Below are positions 22,307 through 63,168 of a stretch of DNA of 64,000 bases, one piece after another (within the stretch, counting starts at the first letter, position 1; each line of letters begins with the position of its first letter). The translations under genes were made by a program, and so were the position numbers. The DNA comes from Mesorhizobium sp. 131-2-1 (GTDB lineage Bacteria > Pseudomonadota > Alphaproteobacteria > Rhizobiales > Rhizobiaceae), in assembly GCF_016756535.1 (NCBI RefSeq), contig NZ_AP023247.1, positions 3,596,501 through 3,660,500 on the forward strand, given 5' to 3'. The notes beneath the pieces are model-generated. The model saw only the letters and a program-made list of their open reading frames with translations. It was not told where the DNA came from and did not search any database.

Positions 22307-22759
22307 TCAGCACGTGACGAGATCGGTGTGGCCAAAACCCTTCGAATAGTCGAGCACCGAGATGACCGTAGGCATCACGCGAAATATGCGGACCTGGTCA
22401 GGAGTCGGCATCGGGCCCGGCAGCGAAACCTGCTCCGGATACTTCAGCGGCAGCATCCGCAGGACCTTTTCCGCTTCGGCCCGGTCTGCTACCGCCTGCG
22501 CGTGCGCCGCCATGGAAAGTCCGGTGATTTCCATCACCTGTGGCGTGTCGTGATCGATCGTCAAGGACACGCGGTCGTCTCGCGCCAGATTCACAGCCTT
22601 CTGGCTTTCCAGACCGCAGAGGAAGTAAAGGTTAAGGCCCTCGTTGACGTAGCCGACGGTCGTCGCCTGCGGCCAGCCGTCCGGCCTTAGCGTTGCGATC
22701 GTCATGACCCGATGCTTGTCCAACAACGTCACGATCTTGTTTCTGATCTCTTCGTTCAT
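22307..22759 (-). CDS. Pyridoxamine 5'-phosphate oxidase family protein (FMN-binding split barrel)
   Basis: From ATG 22759 (GGAG at a 7-nt spacing) the protein has 150 residues. MTIATLRPDGWPQATTVGYV at about 19-38 is the first strand pair of PNPOx-like flavin or F420-binding barrels, followed by FLCGLESQKAVNLARDDRVSLTID. Such proteins reduce or sequester cofactors and are frequent in anaerobiosis and dormancy regulons. An FNR/FixK box lies 61 bp upstream of the start. The longer in-frame start at 22828 would overlap that box. Confidence 0.85.
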   Translation of the reverse strand: MNEEIRNKIVTLLDKHRVMTIATLRPDGWPQATTVGYVNEGLNLYFLCGLESQKAVNLARDDRVSLTIDHDTPQVMEITGLSMAAHAQAVADRAEAEKVLRMLPLKYPEQVSLPGPMPTPDQVRIFRVMPTVISVLDYSKGFGHTDLVTC

Positions 22760-22819
22760 CCGTTGTCTCCAAAGTCCTTGCTGACCGTGACCATGGTAGG
22801 GGTCGTAGACCGCCTCGCA

Positions 22820-22833
22820 TTGACGCACATCAA
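22820..22833 (-). promoter_or_regulatory. FNR/FixK box upstream of the PNPOx-family gene
   Basis: TTGACGCACATCAA fits TTGAY-N4-RTCAA exactly. It ends 61 bp before the start codon at 22759, a distance consistent with a -40 activator site plus a short leader. Confidence 0.8.
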
Positions 22834-22992
22834 CGCAAAACCGGGCAAACGCGCATCGTCAGCATTGCTGGCGGAATGAAACGCAAATTATCTAGCCCCC
22901 CCTCTGCGATACGAGAGGTCGAGTGCCAGCGTTCGCGGCGTCCGGTGGGCTTCCCGAGCGAGCCTATTCCTCGGCCCCACCGACGGTTGCAT

Positions 22993-23006
22993 TTGCGGTG
23001 AATCAA
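22993..23006 (+). promoter_or_regulatory. FNR/FixK-type box upstream of the usp-xfp-ackA gene run
   Basis: TTGCGGTGAATCAA is the reverse orientation of TTGAT-N4-CGCAA, a variant seen four more times in this region. It lies 81 bp before the USP start. The whole interval 22760-23086 (327 bp) contains this box, the divergent box at 22820 and no convincing gene. Confidence 0.7.
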
Positions 23007-23086
23007 AGCGCACGCCGTCCACTGCCTCCATAGATGTCGCAAAGCGCCGGCATCCAGTGGCCCGACCCCGCGCAAAGGAGGCGAAT

Positions 23087-23926
23087 ATGATGAAGCCGAT
23101 AGTATCCCTGTCTCTGGCGACATATCCGGAGGCGAACACGCCAAAGATCGCGTCCAATGCAGTCGCGGTCGCCAGGCACATCGGAGCGACGCTGCACGCG
23201 GTCGCCATCAACGTCGACATTCCCGACGTTTCAAACGCTCTGTCGAGCTTCCTGCTCGATCTTCCCAACAAGATCCGGGAGGCCGAAGCGACCAGTCGCA
23301 AGTTCGGCAAGAACTTGCTGGAAACAGTTGCAAAAGAAGCATTGCAGGGCGGGGTGAGCTTGACGACGCAGGAGCTGACCGCGCCACCGGCCCTTATTGG
23401 GGATACAGCGGCGGCGCAGTGCCGCTATTTCGATATCTGCCTGGTCGGATGGGCGTCTGACAACCATACGGCGCGAATGACGGCCGAGGCAATCGTATTC
23501 GGTTCTGGTCGACCGACCCTGCTGCTTCCTGACACCACGGAAATCGGTGCCCTTGACCATGTCGTCATCGCTTGGGATGGCAGTCGCGTGGCGGCGCGAG
23601 CCGTTGCCGATGCACAACCGTTTGTGGACCGCGCTTCGATGATCACGGTTGTGACCGTGACGGACGAAAAGCCGCTTCCGGGGCAAGACATCAGTGAACG
23701 CCTTGCGCAAGGCCTGAGGACGCGCGGTCTGGCGGCCGAAGCCGCATCAATTCAGCTGGGGCGTCGCCCGATCGCCACTGCTCTCCAGGAGCATGCCCTC
23801 GAAATCGGCGGCAAACTATTGGTGATGGGTGGATACGGTCATTCGCGCGTCAGAGACTTCGTGCTCGGTGGGGCGACCGAAGGCATTCTCTCGGATTTGC
23901 GCCTGCCCGTTCTCCTGTCGCACTAG
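23087..23926 (+). CDS. Universal stress protein (two tandem USP domains)
   Basis: 279 residues from ATG 23087 (AAGGAGG five nt upstream); ATG 23090 is an alternative. There are two UspA domains: about 1-145 (degenerate) and about 150-279. The second has VIAWDGSRVAARAVADAQ and the C-terminal ATP-binding loop GGYGHSRVRDFVLGGATEGIL, so it probably binds ATP. Tandem USPs under FNR-type control are typical of hypoxia survival regulons. It heads a plus-strand run through ackA, with only 3 bp to the next gene. Confidence 0.9.
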   Translation: MMKPIVSLSLATYPEANTPKIASNAVAVARHIGATLHAVAINVDIPDVSNALSSFLLDLPNKIREAEATSRKFGKNLLETVAKEALQGGVSLTTQELTAPPALIGDTAAAQCRYFDICLVGWASDNHTARMTAEAIVFGSGRPTLLLPDTTEIGALDHVVIAWDGSRVAARAVADAQPFVDRASMITVVTVTDEKPLPGQDISERLAQGLRTRGLAAEAASIQLGRRPIATALQEHALEIGGKLLVMGGYGHSRVRDFVLGGATEGILSDLRLPVLLSH

Positions 23927-23929
23927 GGC

Positions 23930-25576
23930 ATGAGTGCCATGAACGCCAATCGAGGCACTGATCCTGTTTTGCGCTTCCACGGGGCGGCCCACGGCGTTAC
24001 CGGTTCTTGCTACGAGATCGAAACGCCACGCGCGAGGATCCTCGTCGACTGCGGCCTGTTCCAGGGATCGAAGTCGGAGCGGGCCTTGAACTACGGCGCG
24101 TTCCCGTTCCCGCCGGAGGCGATTGACGCCGTCGTCCTGACGCATGCGCATATCGACCACAGCGGCCTTCTGCCAAAACTGGTCAAGCAGGGTTTTGCCG
24201 GGCCAATCCACACGACCCGAGCTACGATCGATCTTTGTTCGGTCATGTTGCCGGATGCGGCGCATATCCAGGAAATGGAGGTTGAGCAGCTGAACCGCCG
24301 CAATGCGCAGCGCGGGCGGCCGCCGGTCGAGCCGATCTACAGGCAGCAGGATGCAGTAGCGTGCATGACCCTGTTCCGGGCTCTGGAATACGGGGAATGG
24401 ACCTCCGTCGCCGAGGGCCTTCGGGCCCGCTTCTGGAACGCTGGCCATCTGCTCGGCTCCGCCTCGGTCGAACTCGAGATCGACGTGGAACATCAGAACA
24501 CACCGATGCGCATATTGTTTTCAGGCGATATCGGACCCGGCCACAAGCTGCTGCATGCCGATCCCGAAGGCCCGGCCGGTGTCGACTATCTCATCTGCGA
24601 ATCGACTTATGGCGACCGGGACCGTCCGGACGTTTCGCCTGAACAGCGGCGATCCATGCTCGGCGACGTGGTGCGTAGCGCTGCAGAGGCGAGCGGCCCG
24701 CTTATCGTTCCCTCCTTCGCCGTCGAGCGAACACAGGAATTGCTGGTAGACCTCTACCTGCTCATGAAAGCGGGAGAGGTGCCGACAGCTCCGATCTTCG
24801 TCGACTCGCCACTGGCGACACGCGCCAGCACGATCTTCGAAAGACATGCCGACGACATCGAACATGGCGACGTTCTGCGTCAGGCTCTCAGTTCAGCCCA
24901 ACTGCGCTTCACCGAAACCATCGAGCAAAGCAAGGCGATCAACCGCCTGACCGGCTTCTTCGTCGTGATCGCCGCCAGCGGCATGTGCGACGCTGGGCGT
25001 ATCCGCCATCATCTCAAGGCCAACCTCTGGCGCCGGAACGCCACCGTGATGATGGCGGGGTACCAGGCTCAGGGGTCGCTCGGCAGGATACTGCTCGACG
25101 GCGCGCAGCGTGTGCGCATCCAGGGCGAAGAGGTCGAGGTCAAGGCCCGTATCAGCCTGTTCGATCTCTACTCCGGCCATGCCGACGCAAGCGAACTCGT
25201 CGCCTGGGCCTTGGCTCGAACTCCGGTCAAGCAGACGGTGTTCCTGACGCATGGCGAAGAAGAAGGCTTGGTCGGCCTCAGCGGCCGGCTGGCAGGATCA
25301 ATGCCTTCGGACAGGATCATCATGCCGGAGCTGGATAACGCTTTCCAATTGACGTCCCACGGCTGTTTGCCGGTCGACGCCAACGAGCCGCGCCGCCTAA
25401 AGCCGGAAAAGATTGCCCGCCTCGATTGGCACAACGATCTTTCAAGGCTTCTCCTCGACGTCACCGAGGCCGTCAACACCGCGGCCGACGAACGGGGTCG
25501 CGCTGCAATCATAAGACGGATGCGCCGAGCGCTGGACGCGCCAGCAAATGGTGCTTTCGCACGTGACGAAAGCTGA
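23930..25576 (+). CDS. MBL-fold beta-CASP ribonuclease-like protein
   Basis: 548 residues. The metallo-beta-lactamase Zn motif is THAHIDH at 71-77, and later histidines and aspartates are present (AGHLLGSASVELE, FSGDIG), followed by a beta-CASP domain (VPSFAVERTQELL, FVDSPLA) and the RMMBL segment (SLFDLYSGHADASEL). This is the architecture of the archaeal CPSF/YSH1-like RNA nuclease family. Bacterial members are often found next to USPs and phosphoketolase. Probable role: RNA processing or decay during stress. It starts 3 bp after the USP stop and is clearly co-transcribed. Confidence 0.88.
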   Translation: MSAMNANRGTDPVLRFHGAAHGVTGSCYEIETPRARILVDCGLFQGSKSERALNYGAFPFPPEAIDAVVLTHAHIDHSGLLPKLVKQGFAGPIHTTRATIDLCSVMLPDAAHIQEMEVEQLNRRNAQRGRPPVEPIYRQQDAVACMTLFRALEYGEWTSVAEGLRARFWNAGHLLGSASVELEIDVEHQNTPMRILFSGDIGPGHKLLHADPEGPAGVDYLICESTYGDRDRPDVSPEQRRSMLGDVVRSAAEASGPLIVPSFAVERTQELLVDLYLLMKAGEVPTAPIFVDSPLATRASTIFERHADDIEHGDVLRQALSSAQLRFTETIEQSKAINRLTGFFVVIAASGMCDAGRIRHHLKANLWRRNATVMMAGYQAQGSLGRILLDGAQRVRIQGEEVEVKARISLFDLYSGHADASELVAWALARTPVKQTVFLTHGEEEGLVGLSGRLAGSMPSDRIIMPELDNAFQLTSHGCLPVDANEPRRLKPEKIARLDWHNDLSRLLLDVTEAVNTAADERGRAAIIRRMRRALDAPANGAFARDES

Positions 25577-25650
25577 TCGCGCATCTTTGAATTTCAATTC
25601 TCGCCATACAGGAAGTGCAAGACGGCACGCAGGGACTCCAAGAAGGCCAA

Positions 25651-28209
25651 ATGTCTCGATCCGCTTCATCCACCATTGCAATGCCCGGCCTCAGCGAGGC
25701 CGAAGCGCAGGCAAGGCTTGCCAACGAAGGGTTCAACGAATTGCCCAGGTCCAGGCGCCGGACGCCGTTGCGGATTGCCATCGAGGTCTTGCGCGAGCCG
25801 ATGCTCGCCCTGCTGTTGGGTGGAGGTAGCGTTTATCTGCTTCTTGGCCATCTCCAGGAGGCCTTGATCCTGCTTGCATTTGCCACGTTGTCGGTGGGGA
25901 TTACGATCGTTCAGGAGGCGCGGACGGAGCGTGTCCTCGAGGCGTTGCGCGACCTGACAAGTCCGCGCGCCCTGGTGATACGCGATGGCGAACGCAAGCG
26001 GATTGCGGGTCGCGAGGTGGTGCGCGGCGATACGGTGGTGCTGGGCGAGGGGGATCGGGTTCCGGCCGATATCCTGCTCATCCAGAGCCGGGATATCCAG
26101 ACCGATGAGTCCTTGCTGACCGGCGAGTCTGTTCCGGTGCGCAAGGTTGCTGCCAGGGATGGCGATCTGCCGGCTGAATGCAGGCCGGGGGGCGACGACC
26201 TGCCTTTCGCATTTTCCGGATCACTCGTCGTTCGCGGTTCAGGCATTGGCGAAGTTCTGGCAACCGGGCCGCTCAGCCAGATCGGTGCGATCGGGCAATC
26301 GCTGAGCACCATGGAAACCGAAGCACCTCGCTTGCAGCGACAGACAAAGCGCCTCGTCGGCATCTTCGCACTTGTCGGCGGCGCGGTCAGTGTTCTCGCG
26401 GTCGTGCTTTATGGCTTGTTGCGGGGCGGATGGCTTGATGCGGTGTTGGCGGGCATTGCGCTCGGCATGTCGATGCTGCCCGAGGAGTTTCCCATGGTGC
26501 TGACTATCTTCATGGCCATGGGCGCCTGGCGCATCTCGCAGGCGCGCGTGCTCACCCGTCGCGCAGCAGCGATCGAGACGCTTGGCTCGGCAACGGTGCT
26601 TTGCACCGACAAGACCGGAACGCTGACCGAAAATCGCATGACAATTGCAGAAATGAGAACGCCCGATGGCAAACTGCTTCGCCTGAACAACTCAAACAAG
26701 GAGATGCCAGCGGCATTTGGGGAGTTGGTCGAGATCGGCGTGCTTGCCAGTGCCGAAATTCCCTTTGATCCGATGGAAAGGGCATTCCACAAGCTTGCCC
26801 AGGAGCGCCTGGCGAAGCGCGCTGACAGTGCCGATTGGAAATTGGCCCGCGCCTACGGGTTGGGTCCTGAACTGCTGGCAATGTCGAATGCCTGGCGGCT
26901 ATCGGCTGATGACAGCGACTGCCTGATTGCCGCCAAGGGTTCGCCGGAGGCGATCGCGGCACTCTGTCGTCTGCCTCCAGGTCGTGTCGCTTCGCTCAAG
27001 GATGTTGTGGACGCCATGGCCACGGAAGGACTGCGCGTCTTGGGCGTGGCGCGTTCCAGCCATGCCGGCGATCAACTGCCGGACAAGCAGACCGGCTTCG
27101 AATTTGAATTCATGGGTCTCGTCGGGCTTGCTGATCCTCTGCGAGCGGAGGTTCCGAACGCGGTGAGCAATTGTCGCTCCGCCGGCATCAGAGTGATCAT
27201 GATCACCGGGGACTATCCCGCGACAGCCAGAGCTATCGCCCGCGAGGCCGGGCTCGACTTCAACGATGTCGTCACTGGCGAAGAGCTCAAGGCACAGGAT
27301 GACGCAGCCCTATCGGCGCGCGTGAAGACCGCAACGGTGTTCGCGCGGATTCTGCCCGAGCAGAAACTGGCAATCGTCAGAGCATTGAAGGCCAATGGCG
27401 AGATCGTTGCCATGACGGGAGACGGCGTCAACGATGCGCCTTCGCTGAAAGCGGCCAACATCGGCATTGCCATGGGTGGACGCGGCACGGATGTCGCGCG
27501 GGAGGCGTCTTCCATCGTCCTTCTCGATGATGACTTCGGGTCGATCGTCAAAGCCATCCGGCTGGGCCGCCGCATCTACGACAATTTGCGCAAGGCAATG
27601 GGCTTCATTCTTGCCGTGCACGTACCGATCGCCGGGCTGGCCCTCCTTCCATTGCTGTTTGGGCTGCCTATCCTGTTCGGACCTATTCACATTGCCTTTC
27701 TGGAGATGGTGATCGATCCAGTCTGCTCCCTGGTCTTTGAAGCGGAGACCGAGGAAGACGACACGATGAGGCGTGCGCCGCGGCATCCGGAAGCTGCGCT
27801 CTTCTCGCGCTCGTTGATCGCGTGGAGCGTTGTGCAGGGCCTGCTGGCATTCGCGCTTGTTGCTGGCATCTTCCTCGTCGCCTTGCACTGGGGAATGCCG
27901 GAAAATGAGATTCGCGCCCTGACATTCTTCTCGCTGGTGCTGACGATCGTTGGGCTGATTTTCGTCAACCGTACGTTCAGCGAGTCGCTGCTTGTTGCGT
28001 TGGTCCGGCCAAACCGATCGCTTGCTTTCGTCGTCGTGGTGGTTGCTGCGGCGCTGGGCGGGACACTTGCATGGCCACTCGCAAGTGGCCTCTTCCAGTT
28101 CGGACCGCTGCACCTGGACGACCTCGCCGTGACGTTGGCGGCCGGGTTGGCAGTGCTGGTCTGCCTTGAGGTCCTGAAACACTTCTGGCGGGATGGGCTG
28201 AAAGCCTGA
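25651..28209 (+). CDS. Cation-translocating P-type ATPase (P2-like)
   Basis: 852 residues from ATG 25651 (AAGAAGG upstream; a GTG at 25615 is possible). Order: N-terminal cation-ATPase domain (about 10-60), actuator domain with TGES at 157-160, the M4 motif LPEEFP at 276-281 where Ca2+ pumps have PEGLP, the phosphorylation site DKTGT at 320-324, TGDGVND in the hinge, and a C-terminal cation-ATPase domain with four or more membrane segments. It belongs to the SERCA-like group, but the PEEFP variant leaves the ion (Ca2+, Mg2+ or Mn2+) open. It lies in the USP/phosphoketolase run, 74 bp after the preceding gene. Confidence 0.88.
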   Translation: MSRSASSTIAMPGLSEAEAQARLANEGFNELPRSRRRTPLRIAIEVLREPMLALLLGGGSVYLLLGHLQEALILLAFATLSVGITIVQEARTERVLEALRDLTSPRALVIRDGERKRIAGREVVRGDTVVLGEGDRVPADILLIQSRDIQTDESLLTGESVPVRKVAARDGDLPAECRPGGDDLPFAFSGSLVVRGSGIGEVLATGPLSQIGAIGQSLSTMETEAPRLQRQTKRLVGIFALVGGAVSVLAVVLYGLLRGGWLDAVLAGIALGMSMLPEEFPMVLTIFMAMGAWRISQARVLTRRAAAIETLGSATVLCTDKTGTLTENRMTIAEMRTPDGKLLRLNNSNKEMPAAFGELVEIGVLASAEIPFDPMERAFHKLAQERLAKRADSADWKLARAYGLGPELLAMSNAWRLSADDSDCLIAAKGSPEAIAALCRLPPGRVASLKDVVDAMATEGLRVLGVARSSHAGDQLPDKQTGFEFEFMGLVGLADPLRAEVPNAVSNCRSAGIRVIMITGDYPATARAIAREAGLDFNDVVTGEELKAQDDAALSARVKTATVFARILPEQKLAIVRALKANGEIVAMTGDGVNDAPSLKAANIGIAMGGRGTDVAREASSIVLLDDDFGSIVKAIRLGRRIYDNLRKAMGFILAVHVPIAGLALLPLLFGLPILFGPIHIAFLEMVIDPVCSLVFEAETEEDDTMRRAPRHPEAALFSRSLIAWSVVQGLLAFALVAGIFLVALHWGMPENEIRALTFFSLVLTIVGLIFVNRTFSESLLVALVRPNRSLAFVVVVVAAALGGTLAWPLASGLFQFGPLHLDDLAVTLAAGLAVLVCLEVLKHFWRDGLKA

Positions 28210-28395: not shown

Positions 28396-30792
28396 ATGAC
28401 CGGACAATCGGCAAAAACAGTCAACAGCAACAAACGGATGTCCGACCAGGAGTTGCACGACGTTGACGCCTATTGGCGCGCCGCCAACTATCTTACGATC
28501 GGGCAAATCTACCTGCTCGACAATCCGCTGCTTCGGGAGCCCTTGAAGCTGGAACATGTCAAGCCGCGGCTGCTAGGGCACTGGGGGACTTCGCCGGGCC
28601 TGAGCTTCATCTACGCCCATCTCAACCGCGCGATCCGGCTCAGGGATGCAAACATGATCTACGTCTGCGGCCCAGGCCATGGCGGTCCGGCCATGGTCGC
28701 CAACACCTATCTCGAGGGCATCTACAGCGAACTCAATCCCGACATATCTCTGGACGAAGCAGGCATGCGCAAGCTGTTCCGGCAGTTCTCTTTTCCGGGC
28801 GGGATTCCGAGCCATGCTGCACCGGATGTCCCGGGCTCGATCCATGAGGGTGGCGAATTGGGCTACGCGCTTTCGCATGCTTTTGGCGCAGCCTTCGACA
28901 ATCCGGATCTCGTCGTCGCCTGCGTGGTCGGCGACGGCGAGGCGGAAACCGGGCCACTTGCCACCGCCTGGCATTCCAACAAGTTCCTCAACCCGGCGCG
29001 CGACGGCGCGGTGCTGCCGATCCTGCATCTCAACGGCTACAAGATTGCCAACCCGACCATCCTTGCCCGCATCCCGGAAGACGAATTGCGCGCCCTGTTC
29101 GTCGGCTACGGCTACGAGCCGCTGTTCGTCGAAGGCCATGAACCGGGGTCAATGCATGAGAGGATGGCGGTTGTGATCGATGATGCGCTGGACCGCATCA
29201 GGGCAATCCAGGACGAGGCTCGCGGCGGTGGCGTAGTTGCACAACGCCGGCCGAAGTGGCCAATGATCGTGCTGCGAAGCCCGAAAGGCTGGACCGGCCC
29301 GAAGGAAGTCGACGGGCTGAAAACCGAAGGCTTCTGGCGCGCCCACCAGGTTCCCTTGTCCGGCCTTGCGGAAAACCCCGAGCATTTGAAGATGCTCGAA
29401 GAGTGGATGAGGAGCTATCGGCCTGAAGAACTGTTCGATGCGATGGGTTCGCCTGTGGCAACGGTCCGTGCCACCGCTCCGCTAGGCACGAGGCGAATGG
29501 GCGCCAACCCGCACGCCAATGGCGGTCTGCTGCGCCGGTCCCTTGAATTGCCCAGACTGCGAGACCACGGCGTTTCCGTTGAACGGCCCGGCGCGGTCAA
29601 GGCCGAGTCAACGCGGGTGATGGGCAAATTCCTGCGCGCCGTGATGGAACTGAACGATGCCGCGAAGAACTTCCGCATCGTCGGCCCGGACGAGACGGCT
29701 TCGAACCGGCTTCAGGACGTGTTTGAGGTTACCGAGCGCGCCTGGATGGAAATGATCCTGCCCGAGGATGTTCATCTCGGGCGCGACGGAAGGGTTCTGG
29801 AAATTCTCTCGGAGCACACCTGCCAGGGCTGGCTTGAAGGCTACCTGCTGACCGGTCGGCACGGCTTCTTCTCCTGCTACGAGGCGTTCATCCACATCGT
29901 CGATTCGATGTTCAACCAGCATGCGAAATGGCTGGATGCATGCCGCGAGATTCCCTGGCGACGGTCGGTGGCATCGCTGAACTACCTGTTGTCGAGCCAT
30001 GTCTGGCACCAGGAACACAATGGCTTCAGCCATCAGGATCCCGGCTTCATCGATGTCGCCCTCAACAAGAAGGCCGATATCGTGCGCGTCTACCTGCCGC
30101 CGGACGCCAACAGTCTGCTCTGCGTGACCGACCATGTGCTGCAGACATGGGACCGCATCAACGTCATCGTGGCCGGCAAGCCGCCGTCATGGCAGTGGCT
30201 TTCGATGGACAAGGCGATCGTTCACTGCAAAGCGGGCATCGGCATATGGGACTGGGCTTCAACTGACGGCGGAGCAGAGCCGGACGTGGTCTTGGCCTGC
30301 GCCGGCGACGTTCCGACCCTGGAAACGCTGGCGGCCGTCCAGATACTCAGGCACCATGTTCCGCAGCTTCGGATCAGGGTGGTCAACGTGGTCGACCTGA
30401 TGACGCTGCAACCCAGGGAGCATCACCCGCACGGGCTGTCGGATCGCGACTTCGACGCGTTGTTCACCACCGAAAAACCGGTCATCTTTGCCTACCATGG
30501 CTACCCTTGGACGATCCATCGGCTGACCTATCGGCGCACCAACCACGACAATATCCACGTGCGCGGTTACAACGAGGAAGGCACGACGACGACGCCTTTC
30601 GACATGACGGTCCTGAACGGCCTGGACAGATATCATCTGGTGCTGAGTGTCCTTGACCGTATCCCTGAGCCGACCGGGGCGCATGTCGGACTGAAACAGA
30701 TCATGGAAGGCAAACTGATCGAGCACGGAGCCTATATCCGCGCCCATGGGCAGGATATGCCGGAGATCCTCGGCTGGAAGTGGGAGCAGTAG
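28396..30792 (+). CDS. xfp: Phosphoketolase (xylulose 5-phosphate/fructose 6-phosphate)
   Basis: 798 residues, full length. Diagnostic stretches are [51 protein letters not shown] and the TPP motif [20 protein letters not shown]. The enzyme cleaves xylulose-5-P or fructose-6-P with phosphate to acetyl phosphate plus glyceraldehyde-3-P or erythrose-4-P. Acetate kinase follows after 67 bp, so acetyl phosphate can be converted to ATP and acetate without oxygen. Start: ATG with ACGGAG about 9 nt upstream. The 186 bp before it hold no gene and no box that I could see. Confidence 0.96.
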
Positions 30793-30859
30793 CCGATGGA
30801 AATCAGTGCGGCGAACGGATCGGCAGTCGGGGTCCGTTGGCGGGCGCGGCGGACAGACC

Positions 30860-53079: not shown

Positions 53080-53093
53080 TTGATCCAACGCAA
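53080..53093 (-). promoter_or_regulatory. FNR/FixK-type box of the metal ATPase-trxC operon
   Basis: TTGATCCAACGCAA, followed by TGAACG, is nearly the same as the box at 62245 (TTGATTCAGCGCAA, also followed by TGAACG). Confidence 0.65.
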
Positions 53094-55707: not shown

Positions 55708-55769
55708 CGTTTCGCCTGCTGCTCTCAAAACCGACCGGTCAAATGCGGAGGTTTTGCCATGCGGGGGCA

Positions 55770-55783
55770 TTGATGTGGGTCAA
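55770..55783 (-). promoter_or_regulatory. FNR/FixK box of the Acg-type nitroreductase gene
   Basis: TTGATGTGGGTCAA, strict match, 63 bp before ATG 55707. Confidence 0.8.
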
Positions 55784-55945: not shown

Positions 55946-56122
55946 TTAGTCGTCGTCGTCCAATGGGAAGAAGTGGACCGCCTTTAGCGTGATCGGGATG
56001 TCATAGCCCTCGATCAGTACCGTGGCCCACTGGTCCCCTAGATCATCCTGCCAGGTGTCGGTGACGCGGCACCTCACGGCCAGATCCATGCCAACCTCGA
56101 CCTTGTCCGTTCTGTTCGCCAT
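55946..56122 (-). CDS. Small acidic protein (58 aa), hypothetical
   Basis: The ATG at 56122 has AAGGA at an ~8-nt spacing. The product is soluble, with a short beta-rich body (VEVGMDLAVRCRVTDTWQDD, WATVLIEGYDIPITLKAVHFF) and an acidic tail (PLDDDD). A strict FNR box is 68 bp upstream, the same spacing as for known genes, which supports real expression. No family recognised. The 162 bp after it (55784-55945) hold nothing I recognise. Confidence 0.62.
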   Translation of the reverse strand: MANRTDKVEVGMDLAVRCRVTDTWQDDLGDQWATVLIEGYDIPITLKAVHFFPLDDDD

Positions 56123-56189: not shown

Positions 56190-56203
56190 TTGATTTTGGT
56201 CAA
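56190..56203 (-). promoter_or_regulatory. FNR/FixK box upstream of the 58-aa ORF
   Basis: TTGATTTTGGTCAA, strict match, 68 bp before ATG 56122 (-) and 109 bp before GTG 56313 (+). Confidence 0.75.
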
Positions 56204-56221: not shown

Positions 56222-56235
56222 TTGCGCTGCATCAA
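56222..56235 (+). promoter_or_regulatory. FNR/FixK-type box upstream of the alcohol dehydrogenase
   Basis: TTGCGCTGCATCAA, the reverse of TTGAT-N4-CGCAA, 77 bp before GTG 56313. Confidence 0.65.
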
Positions 56236-56312: not shown

Positions 56313-57386
56313 GTGGTGAAGATGATGAAAGCCGCCGTGGTCCGTGAATTCGGCAGGCCGCTATCGATCGAACAGGTACCGGTTCCAGTGCCTGGGCCGG
56401 GCGAAATCCTCGTCAAAGTGATCGCGTGCGGCGTCTGCCACACCGATCTGCATGCCGTAGATGGCGACTGGCCGGTGAAGCCCGTGCCGCCGTTCATTCC
56501 CGGGCATGAAGTTGCCGGCGTAGTTGCGGCCCTTGGCCCCGGCGTGACGGACTTCAAGGAAGGCGATCCGGTCGGCGTAGCCTGGCTGCACGATGCCTGC
56601 ATGCGTTGCGAATACTGCGAGACCGGTTGGGAGACGCTGTGCGAACACCAGCACGACACCGGTTATAGCTGTGACGGGGGCTTCGCTGAGTATGTCATTG
56701 CGGCGGCGCCCTTTGCCGCTCGCTTGCCAACTGGCGTCGATTTCGCGCAGATAGCACCGATCCTGTGCGCCGGCGTGACCACATACAAGGGTCTGAAGGA
56801 AACAGAGGCGCGGCCGGGCGAGTGGGTGGCTATATCCGGCGTCGGTGGTCTTGGTCACGTGGCAATCCAGTATGCCAAGGCGATGGGGCTAAAGATCGTT
56901 GCCTTGGATGTCGCACCCGAAAAGCTCTGTCTGGCCAAGGCCGCTGGGGCAGATCTTGCCTTTGACGCGCGCTCGCCGGATGTGGTGGCCAGCGTCATCA
57001 AGGGTACCGGGGGCGGCGCACACGGGATTCTCGTTACTGCGGTTTCGGCGCCTGCCTTCAGCCAGGCACTGCATATGGTTCGCCGCAAGGGTACGATCTG
57101 TCTGGTCGGTCTGCCGCCCGGCGAATTTCCGACACCGATCTTCGACGTCGTGTTGAAGCGCATTACGGTGCGGGGCTCGATCGTGGGAACCAGGCGCGAC
57201 CTTGATGAAGCCATCGCATTTGCCGCCGACGGCAAGGTAAGGGCTGAAATCACCAAGGCGCGCCTTGAAGACATCAACACAATATTCGCCGACCTCAGGG
57301 GCGGTCGAATTCAGGGACGGATGGTGCTCGATTTTTCCGAGCCCGTTCGCAAGCCGGTGTCTGAACGCGCGGCCGTTCCCGCCTGA
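56313..57386 (+). CDS. Zinc-dependent alcohol dehydrogenase (AdhP-like)
   Basis: 357 residues from GTG 56313 (AAGGAG at 8 nt; ATGs at 56322 and 56325 are alternatives). Catalytic zinc ligands C39 (ACGVCHTDLH), H65/E66 (GHEVAG) and a later Cys; structural zinc C96, C99, C102 and C110 (CMRCEYCETGWETLC); NAD site GVGGLGHVAIQYAKAMG. It interconverts alcohols and aldehydes with NAD(H), and could re-oxidise NADH when oxygen is short. It is followed after 62 bp by the Pat-like gene, probably in one transcript. Confidence 0.93.
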   Translation: MVKMMKAAVVREFGRPLSIEQVPVPVPGPGEILVKVIACGVCHTDLHAVDGDWPVKPVPPFIPGHEVAGVVAALGPGVTDFKEGDPVGVAWLHDACMRCEYCETGWETLCEHQHDTGYSCDGGFAEYVIAAAPFAARLPTGVDFAQIAPILCAGVTTYKGLKETEARPGEWVAISGVGGLGHVAIQYAKAMGLKIVALDVAPEKLCLAKAAGADLAFDARSPDVVASVIKGTGGGAHGILVTAVSAPAFSQALHMVRRKGTICLVGLPPGEFPTPIFDVVLKRITVRGSIVGTRRDLDEAIAFAADGKVRAEITKARLEDINTIFADLRGGRIQGRMVLDFSEPVRKPVSERAAVPA

Positions 57387-57448
57387 CGAGAAATGAAGGT
57401 GTGGCGTCCTTGGTCGCCACACCTTTCGCCACGAACGGAGAAACAGGC

Positions 57449-60130
57449 GTGACGATCCGAAATCTCGAACATGCTTTCGCTTCGAAGTCGGTTGCAGTGT
57501 TTGGCGCATCGGTGCGCGACGGCTCTGTCGGTCGTGTCGTCTTTGACAACATCGTCAACGGCGGCTTCGAGGGTGAGATTTGGCCGGTCAATCCGAAATA
57601 TTCGCAAGTGGCTGGGCGACGCTGCTTTGCGACAGCGGCCGAGTTGCCGGGCGTTCCGGATCTGGGGGTAGTCGTCACGCCACCAGAGACGGTCCCCGGT
57701 ATCGTGCGCGACCTCGGCGAGAAGGGGACACGAGCGGCAGTCGTCCTTACCGCGGGGCTTACGCGCGAAAACGGTTTGCGCCAGGCGATGCTTGATGCCG
57801 CCAGGCCCACACTATTGCGCATCATAGGGCCGAATACGGTTGGTCTGATGATCCCGCCCCAAAAGCTCAACGCCGGTTTCGCGCATATGGCAGCCAGACC
57901 CGGCAATATTGCCCTGCTGTCGCAATCCGGTGCCATTGCCACTTCGCTGATCGACTGGGCGGCGGACAACAATGTCGGCTTCTCGCAAATCGTCTCGCTG
58001 GGCGACATGGCTGATGTCGATGTTGGAGATTGCCTCGACATGCTGGCTGGCGATGCGCGGACGAGGGCCATCGTTATGTATCTCGAAACCATACCCAATC
58101 CGCGCAAGTTCATGTCGGCGGCACGGGCGGCCGCACGCATCAAGCCGGTCATCGCGATAAAGCCGGGTCGGCATGAGTTGGCGGCAAAGGCCGCGGCGAC
58201 GCACACCGGCGCACTTTCAGGAGCCGATCGGGTCGTGGAGGCAGCTCTCAGGCGGGCGGGCATCTTGCGCGTGAAAGGTCTCGCTGAATTGTTCGATGCC
58301 GCTGAAACGATCGCCCGCTTTTCACCTCTGGAACGAGCCCGCGTCGGTATCGTCACCAACGGCGGTGGCGCCGGCGTGCTCGCCGTCGACCAACTCGTCG
58401 ACGGCAATGGCGAGCTGGCCGAGCTTTCGCAGACAACGATCGAGCGCTTGAACGGTGTGTTGCCGCGCACATGGTCGCACGCCAATCCGGTGGACATCGT
58501 CGGCGATGCGGCGCCCGAGCGCTACAAGGCTGCGGTCGAAGCCGTCGCGGCAGATCCTGGAACGGACGTCGTCCTGGTGATGAATTGCCCGACGGGACTT
58601 GGCTCGCCACTCGCGGCGGCGGGCGCGGTGGCGGAACTTGCCGAGGAAGGCAGGATCTGCGGGAAACCAGCATTGGCCTGCTGGCTTGGAGAACGCACGG
58701 CGCGCGAGGGCCGGCGTGTCCTGCAGGATGCCGGAGTGGCGAGCTTCGAGACGCCTGCGGACGCCGCGATTGCCGTTTCCTACCTCAGCGACTGGTCGCA
58801 AGCTCAGCGGGCGCTACTGCGCACGCCATCGAGCCGCGGCCAAGATATTGTCAGGGACCGCGAAGCCGTGCTTGCCATATTCAGACAGGTGGCGAGCGAG
58901 CGGCGGCGCATGCTGACGGAGCCGGAGGCCAAGGCCGCTATTTCCGCCTACGGCATTGCGGTGCCCCAGACGATCGTCGCCAAATCTCCTGCCGAAGCAG
59001 AGGCCGCTGCCGGACAGCTGCTCAAAACGTCCGAACACGTCGTCGTCAAGCTGCTATCGAAGGCAATTTCGCACAAGTCGGACATTGGCGGGGTCGTGCT
59101 CAACATTGCCGGCGCCTCTGCCGCCAGGGATGCTGCAACCGCAATCGGAGCGCGGGTGCGCAAGCAGGCTCCGACGGCCATAATTGAAGGCTATGCCATC
59201 CAGCCCATGGTGGTGCGAAGGCACGCTCAGGAACTCATCCTCGGCATGAGCCGAGATCCGATTTTCGGTCCGGTCATCCTGTTCGGCTCCGGCGGTGTGG
59301 CGGTCGAGGTGCTCGATGACACAGCCATCGCCTTGCCGCCACTCGACGATGTGCTCGCGGGCGACCTGATCGAACAGACGCGGATCAGCCGCCTGCTTGC
59401 CGGTTATCGCGATCGCCGGCCGGCCGATCGTGGGGCGATCGTTGCCGCGCTCAATGGGCTGTCGCAGATGGTCGTCGATTTTCCATGCCTCGTCTCAATG
59501 GACATCAACCCGCTGCTGGCTGATGCCGACGGCGTGATCGCGCTCGATGCACGCATCGAGATTGAACCAGAACGCGTGGAGGAGCCGGCGCCAAACCCAG
59601 CGCTGGCAATCAGGCCCTACCCGTCAGGCTGGAGCAGGGATTTTTCCGCAGACGGCGCTCGCTATCACATCCGGCCGATAAAGCCGGCCGACATTGCGCT
59701 CTATCCGGAATTCCTGGCCAGGATTTCGCCGGACGATCTGCGCCTGCGATTCCTGTCCCCGCGCAAGAACTTCCCGGACCAGATGCTCAAGCGGCTGACC
59801 CAACTCGACTATGATCGTGACATCGCTTTCGTCGCGCTGGAGGCGGGCACCGGTGCGCTGGCCGGGGTCGGCCGGCTTTCCTGCGATCCTGACCATAGGA
59901 TCGGAGAATATGCGTTGCTGGTCCGGACGGACCTGCAGGGCCACGGCCTTGGCTGGGAACTGCTCAAGCAGATCGTCGACTATGCCAAGGCAGACAAGAT
60001 CAACCGAATCGAAGGCATGATGCTCAGCGAAAACAACAAGATGTTGGCTATGTGTCGCGAATTCGGCTTCTCCATCGCGCACCACCCCGACCAGGCTGGT
60101 CTGTCGCTGGCAACCCTGGAGGTGGGCTGA
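57449..60130 (+). CDS. ADP-forming acyl-CoA synthetase fused to a GNAT acetyltransferase (Pat-like)
   Basis: 893 residues from GTG 57449 (GGAGAAA upstream; the start is conserved in the relic at 53145). Domains in order: CoA-binding (about 10-135), ligase-CoA/flavodoxin-like (150-290) with H252 in ATHTGALSG, the position of the phosphohistidine of ADP-forming acetyl-CoA synthetases, ATP-grasp (about 475-700) and a C-terminal GNAT domain (about 725-890, GHGLGWELLKQIVDYA). PatZ-like proteins acetylate lysines of acetyl-CoA synthetase and other enzymes. The histidine in the ligase part looks retained, so some ligase activity is possible. Confidence 0.9.
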   Translation: MTIRNLEHAFASKSVAVFGASVRDGSVGRVVFDNIVNGGFEGEIWPVNPKYSQVAGRRCFATAAELPGVPDLGVVVTPPETVPGIVRDLGEKGTRAAVVLTAGLTRENGLRQAMLDAARPTLLRIIGPNTVGLMIPPQKLNAGFAHMAARPGNIALLSQSGAIATSLIDWAADNNVGFSQIVSLGDMADVDVGDCLDMLAGDARTRAIVMYLETIPNPRKFMSAARAAARIKPVIAIKPGRHELAAKAAATHTGALSGADRVVEAALRRAGILRVKGLAELFDAAETIARFSPLERARVGIVTNGGGAGVLAVDQLVDGNGELAELSQTTIERLNGVLPRTWSHANPVDIVGDAAPERYKAAVEAVAADPGTDVVLVMNCPTGLGSPLAAAGAVAELAEEGRICGKPALACWLGERTAREGRRVLQDAGVASFETPADAAIAVSYLSDWSQAQRALLRTPSSRGQDIVRDREAVLAIFRQVASERRRMLTEPEAKAAISAYGIAVPQTIVAKSPAEAEAAAGQLLKTSEHVVVKLLSKAISHKSDIGGVVLNIAGASAARDAATAIGARVRKQAPTAIIEGYAIQPMVVRRHAQELILGMSRDPIFGPVILFGSGGVAVEVLDDTAIALPPLDDVLAGDLIEQTRISRLLAGYRDRRPADRGAIVAALNGLSQMVVDFPCLVSMDINPLLADADGVIALDARIEIEPERVEEPAPNPALAIRPYPSGWSRDFSADGARYHIRPIKPADIALYPEFLARISPDDLRLRFLSPRKNFPDQMLKRLTQLDYDRDIAFVALEAGTGALAGVGRLSCDPDHRIGEYALLVRTDLQGHGLGWELLKQIVDYAKADKINRIEGMMLSENNKMLAMCREFGFSIAHHPDQAGLSLATLEVG

Positions 60131-60146: not shown

Positions 60147-61709
60147 TTACGATGCTTCCTTCAAAGGGACGCTCCGAGAAGAAGTTGCAGCTGGTAAGCA
60201 ATCCAGCATTTCAGCGACGATATCGGTGAGCTTTCGATCAGCCTCGACCCTGCGCCAGGTGGGTTGAGCGATGTTTCGCTGCAATTGCCTGGAGAGTATG
60301 TCGACAGTGGCATCGGAAGGGCCACGCTTGCGCTCGCTCACCCGCTGCCAGAGGACGAGCGGGTCTGCTGCCAACCAGAATCCGGCAAACGCGATGCCCC
60401 GGTCATGCGCGACCTTCTCAATCCGGTCACGGTCTATCTCTCGGTCGAATACGGCATCGGTGACAACGCAACCGCCTTGGGAAAGGATCAATTCGCTGCG
60501 CCATACCATTTGGCGATAGACCCGTTCCGACACGCCCGGTCGATAGGCCTTGTCCGGCAACGTCGTTTCGGCGGGCACCCCATGCATGGCTTTACGGATG
60601 CGGTCGCTCTCGACCATGCGCGCGCCAGGCGGCGCGCCGACATGGGCGGCGAGCGCCTCGGTTACGGTCGTCTTGCCGGAGCCGCTCAAGCCGCCGATCG
60701 CGATCAGCCGGGGAGGCTCGCTTCTGAGCAGAGTTCGAGCGAGTTCGAAATACGATCTGGCCTCAGCAATCAGTCTTTCCGACTCGGAGCTGCCTTCCTC
60801 GACCTGCGTTGCGGTGACATGCGCGCGCACCGCGGCTCGCACCGCCATGAAAAAAGGCAGCAGGATGAACCCGTCCTCGTCGTCGGCTTCGTCCAGGTAG
60901 CGGTTCATCACCAGATTGGCGAATTCCGGAAAGCCCCGGTGCCAGAGGTCCATCAACAGGAAGGCGAGGTCATAGAGTACATCGATGCTGGCAATCTGGT
61001 CGTTGAATTCGATGCAGTCGAAGAGGCGGGGCTCGCCATCGAACAGGCAGATGTTGCGCAGATGCAGATCGCCGTGACAGCGGCGAATCTTGCCTGCGGC
61101 CTCACGCCGGTCGAGCAGGGCGGAATAGCGGGCGAGGGCGGTGCGAAAGGCCCCGGCGATCTGCTCAATCTCGTCTGTTTGGAAGACATTGCTGGTAGCA
61201 AAGCCAGCCGAGTTGATGTCGAGCACTCCCGCGAGGTTAGATGACCCCGTACCGGTGTGGATCTCCGGCGCGCCGCGATGGTATCGCGCAATCATGCCCG
61301 CAACCGTCGTCAGCAGCGCGGGCGTCAGTTGACCTGCGACTGCCATTCGATCGAGAAGCTTCGACTGGTCGAAGCGCACCATTTCGATTGCGGCATCAAC
61401 CAGCTCTCCGGCTCCGTCGAACGTGAGCTTGCCGTCGATCCCTCGCGTGATCCGCCGCGCACCCGCATAAAGGCCCGGCGCGGTCTTCGAATTGAGCTCC
61501 ACTTCCTTCTCGCAGGCGGTGAGGCGGAGGGCAGGCGTCGAGAAATCGACATAGGGCAGCTTGACCGCTCGCTTGAGCTTGAAGGCGCGTCGGCCGACCA
61601 GGAAGATGCGCGAGATATGGGTTTCAACCACCTCCACCGGTCCGGTCTCGCCATATTTGGCGGGATCGAGCAGCAGCGCGCCCACGGCTTCCTGGCTTTC
61701 AACGATCAT
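60147..61709 (-). CDS. Fusion of an aminoglycoside-phosphotransferase-like kinase and a P-loop (AAA/zeta-type) kinase
   Basis: 520 residues. The N-terminal half is an APH-fold kinase with the catalytic loop CHGDLHLRN at 211-219 and a metal aspartate near DCIEFND (231-237). The C-terminal half is a separate P-loop kinase with GLSGSGKT at 340-347 and VVTDAVFDREIDRDRI. This two-kinase protein (COG0645/COG2187-type) is frequent in proteobacteria but its substrate is unknown. AGGAG lies 8 nt before ATG. It is 47 bp after the cytochrome c gene and shares its promoter. Confidence 0.85.
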   Translation of the reverse strand: MIVESQEAVGALLLDPAKYGETGPVEVVETHISRIFLVGRRAFKLKRAVKLPYVDFSTPALRLTACEKEVELNSKTAPGLYAGARRITRGIDGKLTFDGAGELVDAAIEMVRFDQSKLLDRMAVAGQLTPALLTTVAGMIARYHRGAPEIHTGTGSSNLAGVLDINSAGFATSNVFQTDEIEQIAGAFRTALARYSALLDRREAAGKIRRCHGDLHLRNICLFDGEPRLFDCIEFNDQIASIDVLYDLAFLLMDLWHRGFPEFANLVMNRYLDEADDEDGFILLPFFMAVRAAVRAHVTATQVEEGSSESERLIAEARSYFELARTLLRSEPPRLIAIGGLSGSGKTTVTEALAAHVGAPPGARMVESDRIRKAMHGVPAETTLPDKAYRPGVSERVYRQMVWRSELILSQGGCVVTDAVFDREIDRDRIEKVAHDRGIAFAGFWLAADPLVLWQRVSERKRGPSDATVDILSRQLQRNIAQPTWRRVEADRKLTDIVAEMLDCLPAATSSRSVPLKEAS

Positions 61710-61756
61710 TGCATGGCTCCTCTGCGCGGTGCCCGCGGGAACGTTCCACCTAGCGT

Positions 61757-62155
61757 CTATCGCTGCAGTGTCTGGACGTAGCCTGCCAGGTTGTGGATCC
61801 GTTCCGTGGTGACGATTTCTCCGCCGCTTGGCCCGTATTTCCTGACGTCATCGGGCAGGAATTGGCGGCCCCAGACCGGCATATCGCGCTCGCCATGTTC
61901 GGGCACCATGGTGCGGCCGTCGATCATGGCAAAGACACGCCAATACGGAAATTCGCCACCATTGTTTTTCGAAAGACGCGTCAGGTCGGCCGGGCGCTTC
62001 ACCAATTCGTCGCCCAAGGGGCCGTCGCCTTTGCCATCGAGACCATGGCAGACCGCGCAGGAGTTCAGGTATTCCGCCTGGCCGTAGCTCATTTCCTGCG
62101 CAGTTGACGCATTGAAGGTCAGGCTTGTGAAAACTGCAGCGATCAGGAGCTTCAT
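61757..62155 (-). CDS. Periplasmic class I cytochrome c
   Basis: 132 residues from ATG 62155 (GGTGGA upstream; a GTG at 62167 is possible). Signal peptide (1-19), heme attachment site CAVCH at 33-37, and probable axial methionine M92 in RDMPVWG. A low-spin electron carrier for a periplasmic or high-affinity oxidase chain is likely. A perfect FNR box is 55 bp upstream. Operon partner is the double-kinase gene. Confidence 0.9.
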   Translation of the reverse strand: MKLLIAAVFTSLTFNASTAQEMSYGQAEYLNSCAVCHGLDGKGDGPLGDELVKRPADLTRLSKNNGGEFPYWRVFAMIDGRTMVPEHGERDMPVWGRQFLPDDVRKYGPSGGEIVTTERIHNLAGYVQTLQR

Positions 62156-62209
62156 CTTCGTGTCCACCGATTGATCGGCTGAAGCTTACTGCTTCAGCGC
62201 GCGCCGCAG

Positions 62210-62223
62210 TTGATCGGGATCAA
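62210..62223 (-). promoter_or_regulatory. Perfect palindromic FNR/FixK box
   Basis: TTGATCGGGATCAA, a perfect match to TTGAT-N4-ATCAA, 55 bp before the cytochrome c start and 109 bp before the USP start. Confidence 0.85.
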
Positions 62224-62244
62224 TTGGGGCGTCGCAGATGATCT

Positions 62245-62258
62245 TTGATTCAGCGCAA
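62245..62258 (+). promoter_or_regulatory. FNR/FixK-type box upstream of the third USP
   Basis: TTGATTCAGCGCAA, 73 bp before ATG 62332, with its centre 35 bp from the previous box. The pair splits neatly between the divergent genes. Confidence 0.7.
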
Positions 62259-62331
62259 TGAACGCAGCGACCCATCTCGTTACGGTTGCAAGCGCAATTG
62301 AAGCCAAACTCGAAAGTCAGGAGCAGCTGCG

Positions 62332-63168
62332 ATGTCATTCAAGACGATACTCACGGTCACGGAGCCAGGCATGAGTGACGTCGATCTGGAACTCGCTGCC
62401 GGCCTGTGCGAGCAGGTCAACGCGCACCTCGCTGTTCTCGTGGTAGCGCTGGCCGCGCCGCCGCCGGTTGGAGAGTTTGCCGCGATCGTCTCAGAAGACT
62501 GGCTGAAGGAGCGCCAGGCCGATGAGAAGCTGCTGAAGAAGAAGACAGCGGTCGTTTCGGCATTCCTTGCTGGCCGGACGCTTTCCGCTGATACCGTTAC
62601 CGCATATCCGGAAGCCGGCTGGGCCGACGAGACCATCGGGCGCCGCGCCCGCTATGCCGATATCACCATTGTGGGACCGGAAGCGCTTGCCGGCGAGACG
62701 TTGAAAAGCAAAGTGGTCGAGGGCGCGCTATTTTCTTCCGGAAAGCCTTTGCTGCTCATCCCCAAGGGTTCTAGGCCGACGCTGAAGCCGAAATGCGTAA
62801 TGGTTGCGTGGGATACCCGTCTGGAGTCATCGCGCGCCGTTCGCGAGTCGCTTGACATGCTGATCGGCGCCGATGAGGTGCATCTTGCCCTGGTCGATCC
62901 AGTCGAGGGCGAAGCCCATCACGGGGCGGAACCTGGTGCCGATGTCGCAGCCTATCTTGCCCGGCACGGCGTCAAAGTCACGGTCAGCCGTCTGCCGAGT
63001 GCGAACCACTCCGTCGCTGACGTTCTTCGCCAGCACGCGGTCGATTGTGGCGCCGAGCTGTTGGTGATGGGCGCATATGGTCATTCGCGGTTGCGTGAAC
63101 GTATTTTCGGCGGCGTCACCAAATCGATGCTCGAAGGCCCGTCTCTGCCAACCCTTCTGGCGCGCTGA
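62332..63168 (+). CDS. Universal stress protein (two USP domains)
   Basis: 278 residues. The first USP domain (about 1-145) includes SFKTILTVTEPGMSDVDLEL; the second (about 150-278) has VMVAWDTRLESSRAVRESLDML and the ATP-binding loop GAYGHSRLRERIFGGVTKSML. It is similar in plan to the USP at 23087. Divergent from cytochrome c, with its own box 73 bp upstream. ATP binding is likely for the second domain. Confidence 0.9.
   Translation: MSFKTILTVTEPGMSDVDLELAAGLCEQVNAHLAVLVVALAAPPPVGEFAAIVSEDWLKERQADEKLLKKKTAVVSAFLAGRTLSADTVTAYPEAGWADETIGRRARYADITIVGPEALAGETLKSKVVEGALFSSGKPLLLIPKGSRPTLKPKCVMVAWDTRLESSRAVRESLDMLIGADEVHLALVDPVEGEAHHGAEPGADVAAYLARHGVKVTVSRLPSANHSVADVLRQHAVDCGAELLVMGAYGHSRLRERIFGGVTKSMLEGPSLPTLLAR

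Follow-up and report, generated by a model that had tools for sequence, protein, structure and literature searches.

A dense, conserved cluster of FixK/FNR-type boxes points to a probable chromosomal low-oxygen survival island in Mesorhizobium

The FixK2 regulon of Bradyrhizobium diazoefficiens uses both symmetric and asymmetric boxes (PMC9104804, PMC6515984; here and below, statements from the literature refer to the passages and tables available from the papers cited). Its FixK2-dependent boxed genes include phosphoketolase-acetate kinase (TTGACCTCACGCAA), PPOX together with cytochrome c, a nitroreductase and a universal stress protein (USP), and furthermore a metallo-beta-lactamase (MBL) hydrolase, an isoprenylcysteine methyltransferase and HlyD-type exporters (PMC9104804 Table 2). 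The subject of the present study is a 64-kb stretch of the 7,108,569-base genome (2 contigs) of Mesorhizobium sp. 131-2-1, C1:3596501-3660500, hereafter the window. It resembles the Bradyrhizobium regulon in having a FixK2-type regulator gene and boxes of the same two forms, and the gene kinds of the FixK2 targets recur in the window and its right flank. Unlike here, where 11 of the 34 strict boxes of the genome lie in 47 kb, the Bradyrhizobium targets (bll0330-bll7993) appear to be spread chromosome-wide and only partly grouped. A preliminary description of the window had proposed a low-oxygen survival programme under FixK/FNR control, and this proposal is supported by our analysis. With a probability of roughly 0.8, the region is a Mesorhizobium chromosomal low-oxygen survival island wired through the FixLJ-FixK cascade. 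This rests on features read from the DNA, namely the density and the conservation of the boxes, the spacing of the strict boxes to a -10 element, the type of the regulator, a FixJ-type site, the location of fixL in the same region of relatives and the kinds of genes present; binding to the boxes, the response to oxygen and the choice among four candidate regulators at each box are what we infer from them.

In layout, the nearest system appears to be the lxa locus of Burkholderia cenocepacia, a betaproteobacterium; the likeness is one of gene kinds, taken from descriptions, and the common trait, a dense cluster of USP and redox genes, is present in the window. The DosR regulon of Mycobacterium tuberculosis includes Acg-type nitroreductases, but its regulator class and box differ. 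It is hypoxia-induced and counts 10 USPs among 48 genes (PMC6127331). The lxa locus is USP-rich, contains cytochrome c and flavin/nitro reductase genes, is tied to anoxic persistence and has a CRP/FNR protein as its potential oxygen regulator (PMC6127331). The locus number of this candidate, BCAM0049, stands apart from the listed lxa genes BCAM0276-0319. A further difference concerns arginine fermentation, for which the available part of PMC3759415 reports that no genes were found in B. cenocepacia, while such genes are present in the window.

In Mesorhizobium loti, fixK, fixJ, fixN, fixO, fixP, fixI and fixS are located outside the symbiosis island (PMC3538637, PMC3989490). The fixK and fixJ genes of strain R7A are the equivalents of mll6606 and mll6578, approximately 28 tags apart (PMC3538637); however, mll6578 is labelled fixK in PMC3989490, so the two sources disagree on this tag. 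The distance between the tags resembles that between fixK and fixL in many of the relatives studied here. The available passages on M. loti deal with fix genes only and contain no description of box-bearing survival genes as a single island, and among the matches listed by full-text searches no title or abstract opening names this Mesorhizobium island.

The genome was scanned by two fixed patterns, strict (TTGAYN4RTCAA) and asymmetric (TTGATN4CGCAA), each with a control pattern counted over the same genome (for the strict one, its reversed form); the window and the regions of relatives were also scanned by a loose FixK2-type pattern (TTGM-N6-KCAA). The 13 boxes of the preliminary description are all present, seven of them strict, five TTGATN4CGCAA and one with a single mismatch, TTGATTCAACTCAA (none has a strand; gap, nucleotides between box and TANNNT; ADI, arginine deiminase):

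22820..22833, no strand, strict FixK/FNR box on the PPOX side; left-hand TACCAT at gap 21
22993..23006, no strand, asymmetric box preceding the USP/beta-CASP/Ca-ATPase/phosphoketolase/acetate kinase run
33716..33729, no strand, one-mismatch box TTGATTCAACTCAA before the metallophosphoesterase gene
42202..42215, no strand, strict box; left-hand TANNNT at gap 21, right-hand one at gap 23
47501..47514, no strand, strict box of the ADI operon (pattern scan)
47647..47660, no strand, asymmetric box of the cupredoxin gene (pattern scan)
49352..49365, no strand, strict box upstream of 48918-49304 (pattern scan)
53080..53093, no strand, asymmetric box between the Zn-ATPase and Nramp genes (pattern scan)
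55770..55783, no strand, strict box of the Acg-like gene (pattern scan)
56190..56203, no strand, strict box; left-hand TAGGGT at gap 21
56222..56235, no strand, asymmetric box 77 nt upstream of the alcohol dehydrogenase gene
62210..62223, no strand, strict box of the cytochrome c gene; left-hand TAAGCT at gap 21
62245..62258, no strand, asymmetric box of the USP gene; right-hand TACGGT at gap 22

The seven strict sites compare with a mean of 0.18 after shuffling, and none of 100 shuffles reached seven. Over the whole genome the strict pattern occurs 34 times and its reversed form 6 times, the asymmetric pattern 20 times and its control twice; seven of the strict sites (binomial P 2e-8) and five of the asymmetric ones (P 8e-7) fall into the window. 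Four further strict sites follow 3.5-6.1 kb past its right end, and the 11 sites of the cluster lie within 47.3 kb (C1:3619320-3666591, window-equivalent 22.8-70.1 kb; binomial P 3e-16). This corresponds to 233 strict sites per Mb compared to 3.3 per Mb outside, a difference of about 70-fold, and hence not to the equal density elsewhere that the preliminary description had named as one of two results that would refute it. When 34 sites were placed uniformly in 100,000 trials, the densest 64-kb stretch contained seven sites in 4 trials and never more. The first 22 kb of the window are indeed free of boxes, as are the 19.5 kb to its left, but the former observation carries little information, since the background density predicts fewer than 0.1 sites there. 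The next group, five strict and one asymmetric, is located at C1:5611949-5626243, adjoining and within the fixNOP/fixLJK region.

An accumulation of TTGA/TCAA words by chance or composition has next to no probability as the origin of this cluster. The GC fraction of the island (0.60-0.64 in 5-kb bins) is slightly below that of the left flank (0.625-0.652), which raises chance matches a little, and the six reversed sites indicate that a few of the 34 may be chance. However, in eight relatives the reversed pattern occurs 2-10 times against 15-45 times for the strict one, and shuffles, reversed-pattern controls and conserved positions together rule out such an origin.

Most boxes had been placed 48-101 bp before a start codon. 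This is confirmed in a slightly wider form, approximately 42-109 nt, with the exceptions of box 33716, which is 143 nt away from its gene, and box 53080, which lies 28 nt from the start of the Zn-ATPase open reading frame (ORF) and 132 nt from the Nramp gene. The ORF starts at 22828, 47514 and 55770 overlap a box, and the real starts are therefore further in. The loose pattern adds one site, 33208, within the fixK ORF, which is probably a chance match.

The boxes are conserved among relatives. A search of 119 genomes of the genus gave 55 with phosphoketolase at at least 85% identity, of which 18 were picked mainly for long contigs, the type with 67-72% identity being left out. Approximately 55 kb around phosphoketolase were compared per relative, making 19 regions with this genome. 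Orthologues had at least 60% identity over at least half of the length, the rest being dropped, boxes were counted up to 300 bp upstream, and the counts include this genome. Each region of 16 of the 18 relatives contains 3-17 strict boxes, while two (G027 and G003) contain none. A strict box precedes all 16 orthologues of the gene for a conserved 128-aa protein (47-49 nt upstream) and all 16 of the cytochrome c gene (38-43 nt). The same is true for the right-hand USP gene, USPb (13/13, each with a second, looser box at 62-73 nt), for the amino acid permease gene of the ADI operon (8/8), and for the PPOX gene and gene 42289 (4/4 each). Loose boxes precede the left-hand USP gene, USPa (11/11, 41-52 nt), and the cupredoxin gene (8/8, 75-79 nt), and they are frequent before the acyl-CoA ligase (12/16) and metallophosphoesterase genes (4/5) and found before 5 of 15 Zn-ATPase genes. 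Across the relatives, the half-sites are kept and the four inner bases vary, with the same genes behind the boxes.

A box centred near -40.5 occupies the class II place of activators such as FNR and CRP. In these regions, TANNNT, a -10 type element, starts exactly 21 nt after a strict box in 40 of 337 orientations, with 9 cases at 22 nt and 6 at 23 nt, compared to a mean of 0.87 at other offsets; the cases come from related regions and are not independent. A separate count over 336 cases gave an identical peak. The gap of 21 nt therefore puts the centre of the strict box near -40.5, which is class II activator spacing. Asymmetric boxes with CGCAA downstream have TANNNT at 21-23 nt in 8 of 61 cases (2, 4 and 2 at 21, 22 and 23 nt), with a mean of 0.23 elsewhere.

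The window encodes a regulator of the fitting type, with a FixJ-type site upstream of its gene:

32658..33335, minus strand, FixK-type CRP/FNR regulator; 0 cysteines, recognition helix ETVSR
33378..33390, minus strand, FixJ-type site TAAGTAGTTTCCC upstream of the island fixK
33358..33365, minus strand, CCGAATTT, after the FixJ-type site; agrees with the CSNAATWT element that PMC4999443 gives for fixK promoters

The protein has a CRP-type fold, with a cNMP-like domain and a Crp helix-turn-helix domain, and its recognition helix (LGLTIETVSR) is the E..SR helix of the FNR/FixK class. The closest solved protein is FixK2 of Bradyrhizobium (4i2o, E 3e-42; best FNR-type chain 6e-24), which differs in having C183, whereas the island FixK has no cysteine. 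Compared with the 13-nt S. meliloti FixJ site quoted in PMC4999443, the TAAGTAGTTTCCC site differs at no more than 3 positions in 16 of 18 rows including this genome, always 72-76 nt from codon 11. The exceptions are G022, with 4 mismatches, and G003, with 5, where the match of 68% identity is not an orthologue. Of 3000 random 260-nt stretches, 17 match the site equally well at any position. A second fixK, a 79% paralogue at C1:5629020 behind a FixL- and FixJ-type pair, has nearly the same promoter block, with 3 mismatches in the 13-nt FixJ-type site.

In this genome fixLJ, fixNOP and the second fixK are 2 Mb away from the island. Of the 18 relatives, 15 have fixL no more than 80 kb from phosphoketolase (at 7.5-66 kb; elsewhere in G108, G027 and G003) and 16 have a fixK within 28 kb, which is the sole fixK found at E 1e-60 in 12 of 18. 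Orthologues (at least 60% identity) of the fixN of this genome are found in the fetched 55 kb of 5 of 18 relatives and of its fixI in 9 of 18. All 131 residues of the FixL PAS domain align with the solved FixL haem domain 1dp6, and we take the conserved His and Arg to be the haem ligand and the distal residue. Two fixL orthologues, G103:C220:183315-184988 and G065:C1:1613608-1615182, contain one in-frame stop each; no other copy was found in G103 at the same threshold, and G065 has a second match at 58% identity.

The preliminary description had assigned the boxes to the regulator at 32658. It is of the FixK type and is encoded beside the boxes, but it is a candidate reader, since it is one of four proteins with an E..SR helix. 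A FixK query gives seven CRP/FNR-type matches including itself, and this helix is present in the two FixK and two FnrN-like proteins, and absent from the other three. A rather unlikely alternative would give the main part in reading the boxes to the two FnrN-like FNR proteins (C1:5614103 and C1:6128081), which would sense oxygen by an iron-sulphur cluster, and a minor one to the island FixK. Both carry cysteines, with a spacing that we presume to be FNR-like, and the ETVSR helix. FnrN and FixK sites are very similar according to PMC4999443, which reports for these proteins in Rhizobiales that no group-specific contact residues were found, and which used one profile for all of them. However, the proximity of fixK to phosphoketolase in nearly all relatives, often as the sole fixK, the conserved site in the promoter of the island fixK and the presence of fixL in the same neighbourhood argue for FixK. 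Very improbable is a reading of the boxes by a DNR/NnrR-type nitric-oxide regulator or another CRP/FNR protein, by which the island would answer nitrosative stress and not oxygen. DNR-type boxes share the form, and the window has cupredoxin and cytochrome c genes, but the three other matches of the FixK query, which was not a dedicated DNR search, are without the E..SR helix, and a FixJ-type site precedes the local regulator.

Several observations weigh against a FixK-controlled low-oxygen island. With regard to geometry, an exact TANNNT at 21-23 nt, on one side or the other, accompanies only 5 of the 13 window boxes (22820, 42202, 56190, 62210 and 62245), asymmetric boxes with ATCAA downstream have none (0/61), and the reversed-motif control comprises 6 sequences, too few to tell much. 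With regard to the regulator, the island FixK scores 193 bits where the cut-off of the closest NCBIfam model is 300 (Caulobacter FixK, a name that covers one lineage), the four E..SR proteins are indistinguishable by sequence as box readers, and here there is no box up to 300 bp upstream of the island fixK, although a strict one is present in 7 of 18. Some genes have a loose box only, and rarely (APH-AAA 3/16, MgtC 2/11 and Ca-ATPase 1/8 orthologues). No box up to 300 bp upstream was found for acetate kinase (0/18), NQO (0/13), beta-CASP (0/9), kinase-USP (0/5), Cu-ATPase (0/3) or PEMT (0/3), nor for ArcC (0/9), ArgF (0/9) or ArcA (0/8); part of the boxless genes sit inside operons, and the remainder are without explanation. 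Among the 158 strict boxes of the 18 relatives, 59 precede orthologues of window genes and 23 fall inside long ORFs away from known starts; a large part of the box-bearing cargo is therefore not shared between genomes, and some of these sites may be chance. G027 and G003 retain phosphoketolase-acetate kinase, but their 55 kb contain no strict box and 4 loose ones. Finally, the available part of PMC3973600 gives the xfp gene of M. huakuii a value of 0.2442 in a bacteroid comparison, maybe meaning lower expression in bacteroids; neither FixK nor FixL was found in that part.

Even so, the cluster is real, non-random and conserved, and it is best read as a FixK regulon gathered in a low-oxygen survival island, a system of a known kind. 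Less usual is that the sensor gene is also in the block of most relatives examined, and that here the system is in two parts, with fixK doubled. According to the proposed mechanism, a drop in oxygen would cause the haem sensor FixL to phosphorylate FixJ, which would turn on both fixK genes, that of the island via its FixJ-type promoter and the second one, 2 Mb off next to fixLJ. FixK, perhaps together with FnrN-type proteins, would bind the TTGAY-N4-RTCAA and TTGAT-N4-CGCAA boxes and activate class II promoters of genes for arginine fermentation, stress proteins, nitroreductase, alcohol dehydrogenase/acyl-CoA ligase and redox carriers. Phosphoketolase and acetate kinase would probably be reached from the box before the upstream USP gene.

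The genes of the window are as follows:

22307..22828, minus strand, PPOX-family flavin oxidoreductase (Pfam/NCBIfam); likely start near 22759
23057..23926, plus strand, universal stress protein USPa (Pfam/NCBIfam)
23930..25576, plus strand, beta-CASP metallo-beta-lactamase, RNase-like (Pfam/NCBIfam)
25615..28209, plus strand, cation P-type ATPase, Ca type (Pfam/NCBIfam)
28396..30792, plus strand, phosphoketolase XFP (Pfam/NCBIfam); no box of its own within 300 bp
30746..32026, plus strand, acetate kinase (Pfam/NCBIfam); marks the left edge of the block missing from G027 at this position
33873..34883, plus strand, metallophosphoesterase (Pfam/NCBIfam)
34885..36306, plus strand, Ser/Thr kinase domain fused to a USP domain (Pfam/NCBIfam)
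36588..39032, minus strand, Cu-type P-ATPase (Pfam/NCBIfam); no upstream box
42289..42810, plus strand, protein with no Pfam or NCBIfam match, preceded by box 42202
42786..43928, minus strand, carbamate kinase ArcC; probable true start around 43727
43729..44751, minus strand, ornithine carbamoyltransferase (Pfam/NCBIfam)
44748..46241, minus strand, arginine deiminase ArcA; the ORF continues, in a different frame, into the permease gene, and the true start is more internal
45973..47514, minus strand, amino acid permease heading the ADI operon; probable start at 47439
47740..48234, plus strand, cupredoxin (Pfam/NCBIfam)
48295..48894, minus strand, flavodoxin-fold (NQO-like) protein (Pfam/NCBIfam)
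48918..49304, minus strand, 128-aa conserved protein, no Pfam or NCBIfam match
49385..50698, minus strand, MgtC/DUF4010 membrane protein (Pfam/NCBIfam)
51126..53051, minus strand, Zn/Cd-type P-ATPase (Pfam/NCBIfam)
53226..54509, plus strand, Nramp-type metal transporter; matched in this genome alone among the 19 regions
54607..55770, minus strand, Acg-like nitroreductase (302 bits, cut-off 199); start likely near 55707
55946..56122, minus strand, 58-aa ORF behind box 56190
56313..57386, plus strand, zinc alcohol dehydrogenase (Pfam/NCBIfam)
57401..60130, plus strand, ADP-forming acyl-CoA ligase fused to a GNAT acetyltransferase (Pfam/NCBIfam)
60147..61709, minus strand, APH/AAA kinase-like protein (Pfam/NCBIfam)
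61757..62167, minus strand, c-type cytochrome (Pfam/NCBIfam)
62332..63168, plus strand, universal stress protein USPb (Pfam/NCBIfam)

Past the right end of the window follow genes for FtsX/ABC export, a phosphoribosyltransferase, another cation ATPase, a two-component system, NAD-binding and FMN-binding redox proteins and the VIT family. Among named organisms, the arginine deiminase gene has its closest relatives in Mesorhizobium (83-91% identity) and Shinella fusca (83%). A seemingly conserved N-terminal extension of this enzyme was dropped as a candidate feature, since the ORF overlaps the permease gene in another frame. In Paraburkholderia sp. Tr-20389 (L045), 7 strict boxes lie in 21 kb round an arginine deiminase gene, whose neighbours are PfkB, Ca-type ATPase, DUF2252 and DUF2254 genes. 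The 58-aa ORF, below the usual length cut-off, has box 56190 at 67 nt, and G103 and G108 keep both ORF and box, at 67-69 nt.

The 128-aa protein is 85-98% identical to its orthologues in the compared relatives. As a marker it was matched in 63 of the 119 genomes of the genus, a few of the matches being fragmentary or weak and the copy in G048 having an in-frame TAA, and in 112 of 249 genomes of the order, with at most 67% identity outside the genus. Seven loci outside the genus gave a strict box at the same place (L200), a loose one at the same place (L199), a loose one at 65 nt (L202) and none in the remaining four.

Of the genes listed in the preliminary description as lying behind boxes, phosphoketolase, acetate kinase and the Cu-ATPase have no box up to 300 bp upstream in this genome; the same is true for the MgtC gene. 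For phosphoketolase, the 19 regions divide completely. In 10 of them, including this one, USPa with a loose box is located 2.5-5.3 kb upstream in the same direction and phosphoketolase is boxless, whereas in the remaining 9, with no USPa close upstream, phosphoketolase carries its own loose box (Fisher P 1.1e-5, on hand-read counts from related regions and thus a guide only). The complete split fits a regulation of phosphoketolase either from its own box or via the upstream operon, and here phosphoketolase and acetate kinase probably depend on box 22993, three genes further up.

The edges of the block can be seen by comparison with G027, which shows colinearity with this genome at both flanks (window 1284-6055; on the right, window-equivalent 82914-98500). 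It has kept phosphoketolase-acetate kinase, and tRNA-Ser(TGA) follows 67 bp behind acetate kinase. In this genome the tRNA gene is approximately 51 kb away from acetate kinase, at the right block edge (L017:18914-19003, window-equivalent 82914-83003). The block between acetate kinase and the tRNA gene is therefore absent from G027 at this place, a claim that concerns this one relative and this one place. Approximately 22 kb to the left of phosphoketolase are also absent from G027, and its single fixK adjoins its fixL. The 128-aa marker, the one block gene searched for elsewhere in G027, gave no match there. An integrative element at tRNA-Ser was considered and rejected, as there was no integrase among the scanned ORFs, which were not every ORF of the block, and no end repeat (best other match to the 24-nt tRNA end in 118 kb, 16/24).

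In the gap between the Zn-ATPase and acyl-CoA ligase genes (window 52995-57420), G103 and G108 hold the same short box-bearing segments in a changed order, and the Nramp, Acg and alcohol dehydrogenase genes at this gap were matched in this genome alone among the 19 regions. A single insertion of an Nramp-Acg-alcohol dehydrogenase cassette was rejected, because the differing segment order indicates rearrangement.

A wider picture, to which we give slightly less than even odds, is that the FixK regulon of Mesorhizobium may be one self-wired chromosomal block beside xfp-ackA and tRNA-Ser(TGA), combining oxygen sensor, FixK, high-affinity oxidase and survival genes. Box-bearing cassettes would be swapped in and out with the switch sites left in place. 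Here the block would be split in two, each part with a fixK and a near-identical FixJ-type promoter, and it would serve mainly anoxic survival and not symbiosis.

The fixK and fixJ mutants of M. loti R7A still make nitrogen-fixing nodules (PMC3538637). The island offers a concrete, testable role for an R7A-type cascade, namely a low-oxygen survival programme, and it supplies conserved test promoters as well as a boxed gene without Pfam or NCBIfam match (48918-49304).

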